This document shows positions 36,439 to 40,674 of a DNA stretch of 59,437 nucleotides, in pieces. The notes under the pieces are model-generated. The model saw only the letters and a program-made list of their open reading frames with translations, searched no databases and was not told where the DNA came from. The stretch is from Alkalicoccus daliensis (GTDB taxonomy: Bacteria; Bacillota; Bacilli; Bacillales; Salisediminibacteriaceae), in NCBI RefSeq assembly GCF_900103955.1, contig NZ_FNIL01000010.1:1-59437 (forward strand). Reading direction: 5' to 3'. A program made the translations under genes and the position numbers. The first letter of the stretch is position 1. Each line of letters begins with the position of its first letter.

Positions 36439-37152
36439 TTATTCATTTTCTTCTTTTAATTCTTCCATTAAATGATGAATCCCTACGGTTTCTTCCACTG
36501 GCAGAACGAAAGAAATTCCTCTGCCAGGTTCATTAATTCTCACATCTTCCTCGATTGCCTTAAGTACCTCTTTTGTCTGTGCCTTTTTGATAAGGGTCAG
36601 CACAACATCTTTTTCTGGTTCAATCTGGATTGAGAAAAGCTTCGCCTTTTCATGGATTCCGCTTCCGCGCCCGTTAATTACAGTTCCACCTTCGGCACCT
36701 CCCCGGCTGGAAGCATCAATTACTTTCCCTGAATTCCCTTTATCTACAATCGTAATAATTAAATCAAAACCTTTATGATGGATATCATCGGTCATTTCGT
36801 CCAGCTCCTCCTTTACATTTTCTTCGTATTCCATATGTGCAATTCCAATTGTTTTACGTATTTCGAGAATAAACCCTATCCCGTGACCCGGTTCATTCAG
36901 CTTAGCTTTATTAGTTATCTCTTCTACCACCTGAGGTAGGATGTCTTCCGGGATCAATGTAAGAATAACTTCTTTTTCATAAACAGTTTCCAGTCCAAAT
37001 ACTTTCTTTTTTTCATGAATTCCATATCCTTGGCCAAACAGGACAGTACCACCCTCAGAGCCAGCCTCTTTCGCAGCTTTAACAATTTTTTTTGCTTTTC
37101 CTTTCTTGACGATTGTAACGAGTAATTTGTGATCTTTTCGAAGTGAAGTCAT
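36439..37152 (-). CDS. Tandem PII-like regulatory protein of the DUF1538 operon
   Basis: A 237-aa protein made of two PII-like repeats (about 8-110 and 128-230). Each repeat follows the PII fold order: a beta strand (LLVTIVKKG, LIITIVDKG), a glycine-rich T-loop region (EGGTVLFGQGYGIHEK, EGGTVINGRGSGIHEK), and a second half ending in NEPGHGIGF or NEPGRGISF. The GlnB uridylylation tyrosine is absent. It overlaps the upstream DUF1538 gene by 4 bases. Likely role: a cytoplasmic sensor that gates the two membrane proteins. Confidence 0.82.
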   Translation of the reverse strand: MTSLRKDHKLLVTIVKKGKAKKIVKAAKEAGSEGGTVLFGQGYGIHEKKKVFGLETVYEKEVILTLIPEDILPQVVEEITNKAKLNEPGHGIGFILEIRKTIGIAHMEYEENVKEELDEMTDDIHHKGFDLIITIVDKGNSGKVIDASSRGGAEGGTVINGRGSGIHEKAKLFSIQIEPEKDVVLTLIKKAQTKEVLKAIEEDVRINEPGRGISFVLPVEETVGIHHLMEELKEENE

Positions 37153-37880
37153 GTATTCGACCTCTCCTTTGCTTTAAATAATAAACCTAGAATTAGAACT
37201 GCAAGGATTGGAGTTAAGGCTACTAAAGCAATCATACCAAACCCGTCAAGAAGAGGATCTCTTCCTTCTGTTACTTCAGCGACTCCTACGGCAATAGCCA
37301 TGATAAAGGTGACTGTCATAGGGCCTGTAGCTACACCACCAGCATCAAATGCGATAGAAATAAATCTGTCGCTGGATAGAAATACAAGAATAAATGCTAA
37401 AATATATCCTGGTAAAATAAGATACCAGAGAGGAAAACCGACCACGATCCTTACCATGGAAAGTCCTATAGCCAAACCAACACCTAAAGACAAGGTAATT
37501 AACATTACGTTTTTGGAGATAGAGCCGGCAGTTACTTTCTCCACTTCGTAATTAAGTATTCTGATCGCAGGCTCAGCGAATGTGGCTACGAGTCCGAATA
37601 AAAAACCGAGAGCAGGTAAGAGGATTAACGTATTATCCCGTGCACCGAGTATTTCTCCAATAGCTTCTCCAGCCGGGAAAAAGCCGACTTCCACTCCCTG
37701 GAGAAATAATACAAGCCCCGCAAAAGTAAAAATCAGTCCAATAACAATATCTTTAATGCGTTTTAGCTCCAGTTTCAGAAAGAAAAACTGAAACACGAGA
37801 AAAAATATCAATAATGGCACTATTGCAAGTGTAACTTCGTATATAACATGATCGATCCCTTCAAATAATGCCATAATCAT
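37149..37880 (-). CDS. DUF1538 membrane protein, second subunit
   Basis: A 243-aa protein with about seven hydrophobic segments. The family motifs FAEPAIRIL, FDAGGVATGPMTV and DGFGMIALVALTPILAVLILG are clear. DUF1538 pairs have been described as a two-component Na+(Li+,K+)/H+ antiporter, UmpAB, in Halomonas; that comes from memory and is the basis for the functional guess. It overlaps both neighbours by 4 bases, so the three genes form one coupled operon. Confidence 0.85.
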   Translation of the reverse strand: MIMALFEGIDHVIYEVTLAIVPLLIFFLVFQFFFLKLELKRIKDIVIGLIFTFAGLVLFLQGVEVGFFPAGEAIGEILGARDNTLILLPALGFLFGLVATFAEPAIRILNYEVEKVTAGSISKNVMLITLSLGVGLAIGLSMVRIVVGFPLWYLILPGYILAFILVFLSSDRFISIAFDAGGVATGPMTVTFIMAIAVGVAEVTEGRDPLLDGFGMIALVALTPILAVLILGLLFKAKERSNT

Positions 37881-38569
37881 CCGTAAATCACTCCCAACAC
37901 CATTACTGCCAGAATCGGCCCAATAGAAGCAAGAGCCACAAGGCCAAATCCATCACTTGTCGATGATTTTCCTCTTAATACTGAAGCGACACCGACCCCG
38001 AGGGCTAAGATGAATGGCACAGTCATAGGACCGGTTGTTACACCGCCGGCATCAAAGGAAATAGGGATAAAGGTAGCGGGAGTAAAGAGTGCGAGCAGTC
38101 CGACCACACCGTATCCGCCGAGCAAAAGGTATTTAAGAGGTATATTAAATACTGTTCTCGCCATCGCCAGCATTACAAAGAATCCTACACCAAGCGCTAC
38201 AGAATAGACAAGAGTTAAATTTGCAATCTCTCCACCTGATACATCGTCCACCTGTGAAGAAAGGACTCTTACATCCGGCTCTGCAATAGTTACCACGATC
38301 CCAAGCACAAATCCTGTCCCAAGTATCAGCCAAATTTTGTTTGTTTTTGGCAGGGTGGAACCTATTAAGTCACCAATAGGCAAAAGACCAATATGTACCC
38401 CGACTAAAAAAAGGAATAAACCGAGGCCAACCATAACAACTCCGGCTACAAAGCGGAAAAACAAATCAGGGGGAAGGCCGATGAGGGTATATTGTAAAAT
38501 TATAATTACAGCTGCTAAAGGCAATATGGCCATTACAACTTCTTTAAACTGTGTCCAGACTTCTCTCAT
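37877..38569 (-). CDS. DUF1538 membrane protein, first subunit
   Basis: A 230-aa paralogue of the next gene with the same motifs: IAEPDVRVL, FDAGGVTTGPMTVPF and DGFGLVALASIGPILAVMVLG. The repeated AEP and AGGV-TGPMTV segments in both subunits suggest a pseudo-symmetric heterodimer with a shared ion path. I chose ATG 38569 (MREVW) with GAGGAG 8 bases upstream; the GTG at 38578 would touch it. It is the first gene of the operon. Upstream, a GAGGT-T-ACCTC dyad lies at about 38613-38623. Confidence 0.85.
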   Translation of the reverse strand: MREVWTQFKEVVMAILPLAAVIIILQYTLIGLPPDLFFRFVAGVVMVGLGLFLFLVGVHIGLLPIGDLIGSTLPKTNKIWLILGTGFVLGIVVTIAEPDVRVLSSQVDDVSGGEIANLTLVYSVALGVGFFVMLAMARTVFNIPLKYLLLGGYGVVGLLALFTPATFIPISFDAGGVTTGPMTVPFILALGVGVASVLRGKSSTSDGFGLVALASIGPILAVMVLGVIYG

Positions 38570-38749
38570 CAACTTCACTCCTCGTATTACTTTAATTAAA
38601 CATGGACAAAATGGAGAGGTTACCTCCGTAAGAATTGAATATTATCCTTAATTTTACGTTAATTAAAATATCAATGCGAATAATTTGAATTTGTGGTAAT
38701 ATTCTGACTAATCGTTTATAATATAAGAAAAGTGAAGGAGTGACCTCCT

Positions 38750-39132: not shown

Positions 39133-40674
39133 TTACTCTAAAATATCCCATCCTGTAGCAAGTTCTACATCCGGGTTTTTATCCTGGAACCACCGCAGCG
39201 AGAATTCATTCTCAAATAGCAGGACAGGACGTTTCTGCTGATCGAGTACAAGCATTTTACGGCTGTCAGTCATACTTTCATCCACGTGTCCTTTTGTGAC
39301 CCAGCGGGCAAGTTCATGGCTCATGTGTGCAAATTCTATATCCACATTATACTCATTTTTCATCCGGTATTCGAATACCTGGAACTGCAGTTCACCAACT
39401 GCACCGATAATATAATCCTCAAAATAAGGAGTTTTATAAAGCTGAATTGTACCTTCCTGCACGAGCTGCTGCATTCCCTTATGGTACTGCTTATGTTTTA
39501 AAGCATTTTTTGCAGTGACCTTTGCAAATTTTTCCGGAGGGAATTGAGGCATTTCTTCATATTGAATCAGCTTCTGACCAGTACATAATGTATCTCCGAC
39601 CTGGAAATTTCCTGAATCATATAATCCTACTATATCACCTGGCATCGCAGTCTCCACAGTTTCTCTGTCTGAAGCAAAAAAGGAATGGGATTGATTTAAT
39701 TTCATTTTTTTCCCCGTCCGGGAATGTTTTACTTCCATGCCACGATCAAAAGATCCGGAGCATACTCTTAAAAAAGCGATTCGGTCGCGGTGGTTCGGAT
39801 TCATATTAGCCTGAATCTTAAAAACAAATCCGCTGAAATCATTTGATTCCGGAGAAACAAACTCTCCAGAAGCTTTACGAGGCTGGGGAGGGGCAGCAAG
39901 GTCTACGAATTGATCTAAAAATGACTGCACTCCAAAGTTTGCCAGAGCGGATCCAAAAAAGACTGGAGTCATCTGGCCATTCTTAACTTTTTCCGCAGAA
40001 AATTCATTTCCAGCTTCCTCCAGAAGCATCGTATCTTCTTCCAGTGCATCTTTTTCATAATCTTCGAGCATGTGAGCTTCCTTTAAAGGCACAACTTTAC
40101 GCTCATGATCTTCATTAAATATTTCCACCGTATCATCAGGAATACTGTAAATACCTTTTAAACGTTTTCCCATGCCAATCGGCCAGTTCATCGGGTAAGT
40201 TTCCATATCAAGAGTTTCTTCAATTTCTTCTAATAAGTCTAAAGGTTCTTTACCTTCACGATCGAGTTTATTAATAAACGTCAGGATTGGAATACCGCGC
40301 ATACGGCATACTTTAAAGAGCTTTAATGTTTGTGCTTCAATTCCTTTAACACAGTCTATTACCATCACTGCAGTATCAACTGCGGTAAGTGTCCGGTAAG
40401 TATCTTCACTGAAATCCTGGTGCCCTGGTGTATCGAGGATGTTAATCTGCGTATCGTCGTAATTCAGCTGCATTACACTGGAAGTAACAGATATACCTCG
40501 TTGTTTTTCAATATCCATCCAATCCGAAGTTGCATATTTTCCGGATTTTTTTCCTTTCACCGTTCCTGCGCTGCGGATTCCGCCGCCTAATAAAAGAACT
40601 TTTTCTGTAAGTGTCGTTTTACCAGCATCCGGGTGTGAAATGATTGCAAATGTCTTTCTTGGTTTTTCCTGCAT
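39133..40674 (-). CDS. prfC: Peptide chain release factor 3
   Basis: A GTPase that recycles RF1/RF2 from the ribosome after termination. The 513-aa protein has the [13 protein letters not shown] GTPase motifs [12 protein letters not shown] (G1), RGISVTSSV (G2), DTPGHQDF (G3) and NKLD (G4), and then the RF3 C-terminal domain. B. subtilis lacks RF3, so its presence separates this organism from that species. It is monocistronic, with its own terminator on the minus strand. Confidence 0.95.

Follow-up and report, generated by a model that had tools for sequence, protein, structure and literature searches.

The closest described relative of the locus reported here is UmpAB of Halomonas zhaodongensis, a pair of DUF1538 proteins for which the available text describes Na+(Li+,K+)/H+ antiport, already mentioned in the earlier note on this DNA, and, by co-immunoprecipitation, a heterodimer (PMC5484666). 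Likenesses to the present locus are the overlapping DUF1538 gene pair, the seven predicted helices of each protein and the hydrophilic C-terminus of UmpB, which is also found on protein B below. In GlnK-AmtB and SbtB-SbtA a PII-fold protein controls a transporter, as is proposed here, and glnK adjoins amtB just as the PII gene adjoins the DUF1538 genes; the transporters of those systems are, however, trimeric and of other families (PMC10710835, PMC10117731, in the parts available). The PII proteins also differ from GlnK and SbtB, those of the window type having a shortened T-loop, mostly replaced K90, R101 and R103 residues, and often being doubled. PII-NG with CzcABC resembles the present case in that a non-canonical PII is encoded beside a proton/cation antiporter (PMC7726332, available text, which cites Sant'Anna 2009). 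CzcABC itself is an unrelated efflux pump, which we take to be of the RND type. Finally, DUF606, EmrE, CrcB and YdgE/YdgF are families of dual or opposite topology, and DUF606 occurs in lone, paired and fused forms, as does DUF1538 (PMC3962082, available text).

The window is the whole stretch of 59,437 nucleotides of Alkalicoccus daliensis (contig NZ_FNIL01000010.1) that was analysed. Its minus strand carries an operon (38569-36439) in which two genes for DUF1538 (UmpA/UmpB-like) proteins are followed by one for a tandem PII, with the following features:

37877..38569, minus strand: DUF1538 protein A (UmpA position), 230 aa with ATG start; predicted N-in/C-out
37877-38578, minus strand: ORF of protein A with the alternative GTG start
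37149..37880, minus strand: DUF1538 protein B (UmpB position), 243 aa; basic tail at the C-terminus; predicted N-out/C-in
36439..37152, minus strand: double PII-like protein, 237 aa, identified by P-II match and predicted fold
36841..37128, minus strand: N-terminal PII domain (Pfam P-II match)
36478..36762, minus strand: C-terminal PII domain (Pfam P-II match)

The description in the earlier note of three genes with 4-base overlaps agrees with the ORF reading of the window, in which both junctions read ATGA; GAGGAG lies 8 bases 5' of the ATG start of protein A. Both membrane proteins match the Pfam model DUF1538 (PF07556) at E 5.7e-76 (A) and 2.1e-75 (B), with bit scores of 253.1 and 254.9 against a curated cut-off of 22.6. 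They share 40% identity over 233 positions (E 7e-50) and the motifs AEP and FDAGGV(T/A)TGPMT, and are thus paralogous, as had been claimed. The third protein matches P-II (PF00543) above the cut-off in two stretches (E 1.3e-14), and its halves are 44% identical over 102 positions (E 8e-31), which bears out its reading as two PII-like repeats. A genome search returned no DUF1538 match beyond the operon pair. A terminator-like hairpin (39124-39107) is situated between the operon and the upstream gene (39133-40674), and promoter-like sites were not enriched (7 versus 7.3 in shuffled sequences). At gathering score, Rfam returned only rRNA and tRNA matches in the window, whose positions 1-1904 hold the 3' end of a 23S rRNA gene followed by 14 tRNA genes. 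No shared control element was suggested by the six Rfam matches in 34 of 80 named loci. In Enterococcus dispar the opposite strand carries a fluoride riboswitch (L213:522-594) roughly 2.7 kb upstream of that species' DUF1538 pair, which is probably an unrelated element.

Against the equivalog models for UmpA and UmpB (NF041627, NF041628), with cut-offs of 490-500 bits, the window proteins score 122-134 bits, and for this reason exchange of the UmpAB type, Na+(Li+,K+) for H+, can be assigned to the window pair by analogy with only moderate confidence. Acidic residues within the helices are conserved, the E or D of AEP and the D of FDAGG being present in at least 99% of sequences (120 A, 120 B and 16 lone proteins), a pattern in keeping with cation or proton coupling. 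Among the best matches are Evansella, Texcoconibacillus, Alkalihalobacterium, Virgibacillus and Planococcus, which are salt- or alkali-tolerant. Both observations speak against another substrate, for example an anion such as bicarbonate, with the PII protein signalling the state of carbon or energy supply in the manner of SbtB for SbtA. Such a role would be compatible with the distance to the UmpA/B cut-offs, with the breadth of the carriers (rumen and gut MAGs, Enterococcus and methanogens, besides salt-lovers) and with the presence of the same PII subfamily beside a CitMHS/ArsB-type permease (see below); the sole assay found is that of one Halomonas pair. On balance we regard a different substrate as rather unlikely, and cation/proton exchange is retained as the preferred reading.

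The opposite topology predicted for A and B is the strongest new result and was absent from the earlier note. In a first K+R count over alternate loops, which were laid out after the column table had been viewed, the bias of A was positive in 117/117 sequences and that of B negative in 115/117 and zero in two. For a second count, loops 1-5 were taken from the helix gaps of a structural model, while the termini and loop 6 were set by motif. This gave a positive bias in 117/117 A sequences (mean +4.3) and a negative one in 117/117 B sequences (mean -7.0), each set comprising 120 loci with 117 distinct sequences that are related, so that the counts are not independent trials. In fused proteins, the second count was positive for 68 of 69 first halves and negative for all 69 second halves. 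The alternating 4+4 partition of loops and termini separates A from B best of the 35 possible. For the window pair itself the bias is +8 for A (+7 with the ATG start) and -7 for B. Given this opposite bias of homologous proteins it is very probable, to judge from their sequences, that A and B take opposite orientations in the membrane and form an antiparallel heterodimer.

The model used was that of a fused relative from a Treponema MAG (L211) and not of the window proteins (mean pLDDT 86.6). It reads as seven helices in each half, with breaks in two of these at AEP and FDxGG; the number derives from this one model, with the long broken helices taken as single crossings. Since seven is an odd number, the two halves would be inverted, and the fused forms would represent the A/B pair within one chain. 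A parallel arrangement of A and B, with the charge bias arising from lipid or partner contacts, say, is conceivable in that the predicted topology is a sequence inference. It is hard to reconcile with inverted halves in the fused form, or with an A-B charge difference whose sign agrees with prediction in every one of the eight loops and termini, and we consider it very improbable. The fused-pair model had no confident fold match in the PDB, which does not by itself show a new fold, and a sequence search at E up to 5 found no solved DUF1538 structure.

Besides pairs and fusions there are lone DUF1538 genes, and 13 of the 15 genomes carrying one have a single DUF1538 match. The 15 lone proteins, a set from which L189 was excluded as its partner is cut off, show a bias of -3 to +2 (mean -0.6); being nearly unbiased as dual-topology proteins are, they look like dual-topology proteins. 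In a tree of 158 sampled sequences, B proteins group with fused second halves (support 1.0), A proteins with fused first halves (support 0.90; this group includes L189, an A-type protein) and the 15 lone proteins form a third group (support 0.995). A route from dual topology through an opposite pair to fusion has been discussed for other families, in which dual-topology candidates have near-zero and paired proteins strong charge bias, as in DUF1538 (PMC3962082, available text). The tree and the charge pattern fit this route. A difference is that the families in Table 1 of that paper have 3-4 helices, and one 5-6, whereas the DUF1538 unit reads as seven and comes with PII (PMC3962082).

Among 398 genomes of the phylum, DUF1538 is found in 139 and the PII subfamily (a match to the double-PII profile at E 1e-10) also in 139, with both in 137, leaving two genomes with DUF1538 only and two with the PII subfamily only (Fisher p ~1e-102, a value that ignores shared ancestry). 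One of the DUF1538-only genomes, G056, has a copy with six in-frame stops (G056:C1:2161174-2161630), and in the other, G304, a fused gene reaches the contig end. G056 also lacks a PII-subfamily match at E 1e-10, and the regulator may have been lost there along with the transporter. Of the two genomes with PII only (G367 and G049), G367 was the one opened. PII lies in the same cluster as DUF1538 in 129 of the 133 genomes with a fetched locus, a set that omits G027, G056, G107, G254, G282 and G291 (fragments, one with stops) and in which a genome with several loci, the further ones fetched in part, was scored positive if at least one fetched DUF1538 cluster has PII. Three of the other four loci are cut by contig ends, and the fourth (G218) has no adjacent PII, its double PII being on a different contig.

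A similar picture was obtained with named loci, 75 of 80 of which carry PII; they span Bacillota, Balneolaceae, a Desulfovibrio, Treponema and methanogens. Two of the five misses are at contig ends. The intact ones are from two Sutcliffiella and Metabacillus lacus, each of which has one P-II match elsewhere in the genome (103-105 bits). DUF1538 was found in all 7 other genomes of the same genus as the window, in 23 of 27 other genomes of the same family and in 3 of 25 genomes searched from other families of the order; PII is present at 19 of 20 loci taken from this search of relatives, the exception being L271 (G509). A tblastn search of plasmids returned nine records with DUF1538, and the three loci examined, which include two from Alphaproteobacteria, all adjoin a gene annotated as P-II family nitrogen regulator. 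The link between PII and DUF1538 is thus near-obligate. Nevertheless, DUF1538 pairs without adjacent PII exist, so the transporter can work without it, and Halomonas UmpAB did so in E. coli (PMC5484666, available text). The cloned 4.2-kb fragment carried ORF1-4, with umpB as ORF4 and nothing named beyond in the available text, so that it may have stopped short of a PII gene; the words 'PII', 'topology', 'antiparallel' and 'inverted' are absent from that text (PMC5484666). Among the literature matches listed, none reports DUF1538 paired with PII or an inverted topology, subscription papers being mostly uncovered by the search, and the matches listed for PotN held nothing on PII.

PII occurs at DUF1538 loci as a single gene, as two genes, as a fused double gene or fused to the C-terminus of the transporter. 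Counted per genome, with D for DUF1538 and P for PII, the arrangements are DD-PP (47), D-D-P (28), D-D-PP (17), D-P (15) and D-D-P-P (9), with fewer of others. The window has D-D-PP, with the fused double PII noted earlier; this is one variant among several and not peculiar to the window, DD-PP and D-D-P being commoner. In 116 of 130 cases at most 20 bases separate the last DUF1538 gene from the first PII gene, although gene starts were set by the longest frames and overlaps are therefore overstated. In two genomes DUF1538, DUF1538 and PII form a single protein (618 and 626 aa, 67% identical), and a separate double PII gene adjoins each of these fusion genes. The PII part of the fusions was recognised by the subfamily profile (E 4e-22 to 9e-22) and was not reported by the Pfam P-II model at E 0.01. 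Fusion residues 212-615, which correspond to the second DUF1538 and PII, have an 85% identical counterpart in one frame in a third genome. Co-occurrence, adjacency and these natural fusions agree with the earlier proposal, framed before any genome survey, of a PII dedicated to the DUF1538 transporter: a functional link of the two is well supported.

The PII fold, likewise expected from the letters alone, was recovered by structure prediction. In its model (mean pLDDT 80.7) the window protein shows the PII strand-helix order twice, and the structure matches are dominated by solved PII-superfamily proteins. One match, 9p1x, was considered as a PII-transporter complex and rejected, both matched chains being annotated as PII; chain pairs of this kind are presumably nitrogenase regulators. 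For a residue comparison with E. coli GlnK, 356 domains were used (113 N-terminal, 113 C-terminal and 130 single; duplicates were retained and some loci overlap). Relative to GlnK the T-loop is missing six positions and has one residue inserted. EGGTV, earlier taken for the T-loop, aligns to GlnK positions 26-30 ahead of it, and the T-loop corresponds to the GxGIHEKxKxF stretch. The missing uridylylation tyrosine is corroborated: the Y51 column is F in both window domains and mostly F or L across the 356, unlike the uridylylation site of canonical GlnB/GlnK. The canonical residues K90 and R101 are replaced by I in 79-87% and by G in 73-92% of domains, respectively, and R103 is variable. Q39 is often H in C-terminal and single domains, while K58 and T29 are mostly retained. 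A conserved stretch reads RGTGIHExxK...IEPEKE...KPGxGIAF, and in fused forms the N-terminal PII domain has diverged more than the C-terminal one. We take K90, R101 and R103 to be nucleotide-phosphate contacts, and the lost residues together to be contacts for nucleotide and 2-oxoglutarate. With the canonical residues mostly replaced, the domain is a PII by fold for which classical sensing of ATP/2-oxoglutarate is improbable. The replacement of K90, R101, R103 and Q39 also weakens ligand guesses based on classical PII.

P-II matches in the genome itself are the two operon domains and one of 25.2 bits on another contig. A match of canonical GlnB/GlnK strength was not found there, the same search being positive in 13 of 14 control genomes. 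The third PII-like protein (116 aa, P-II 25.8 bits as a protein, G000:C14:321189-321461, L144:5172-5522) is unlinked, with no DUF1538 adjoining; by eye its gene is flanked by gat and ligA-like genes, and a neighbouring histidine-kinase gene has a 5TM-LYT domain. Elsewhere, a single PII-subfamily gene directly precedes a CitMHS/ArsB/MamN-like permease of 442-445 aa (L291:4158-6092, L292:2828-4705, L293:3994-5858). This was seen at 3 of 5 fetched PII loci, with gaps of ~120-220 bases; one of the three belongs to a genome that lacks DUF1538. Its occurrence beside such permeases suggests that the PII subfamily could serve to plug ion carriers of different kinds.

Operon position, co-occurrence and gene fusion all link a dedicated, non-canonical PII to the DUF1538 transporter. 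We therefore consider it likely, on these grounds and by analogy with the known PII-transporter pairs, which work in this way, that the operon encodes a Na+(K+)/H+ antiporter with antiparallel subunits, together with a PII of its own that gates it from the cytosolic side. The heterodimer of A and B would exchange Na+(Li+,K+) for H+, and PII would dock on its cytosolic face near the basic C-terminal tail of B. Binding of a small ligand would move the short T-loop, and transport would be blocked or released as in GlnK-AmtB or SbtB-SbtA. Where PII is doubled, its two domains may match the two transporter halves. PII might instead be a sensor that the transporter, acting as a receptor, sequesters and releases, relaying ion or energy status to other targets. 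GlnK both plugs its transporter and is recruited by it (PMC10710835, available text), and the unlinked third PII-like protein, in a genome without a P-II match of canonical strength, would allow for several targets. Fusion to the transporter favours a local role, however, and no further gene is a frequent neighbour of the cassette: the most common cluster of adjoining genes, judged by eye to encode an ABC-F-like ATPase, was present in 14 of 160 loci, a count that omits L006-L064 because of short flanks. We judge the relay unlikely, and direct gating by PII remains preferred.

Looking more widely, DUF1538 may be a family in which the stages of one route coexist, from a lone dual-topology protein of seven helices, through an opposite-topology pair, to a fused inverted repeat of 14 helices, possibly with a hitherto unsolved fold. 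At each stage it would nearly always have as companion and controller a PII branch of its own, which would have dropped classical ATP/2-oxoglutarate sensing and serve as a plug for more than one type of ion carrier. This broader picture could equally well prove right or wrong. If true, it would supply a regulator and an architecture for a widespread membrane family filed in Pfam as of unknown function, the antiporter would join the short list of PII-controlled transporters, and the family would permit direct comparison of lone, paired and fused inverted forms.
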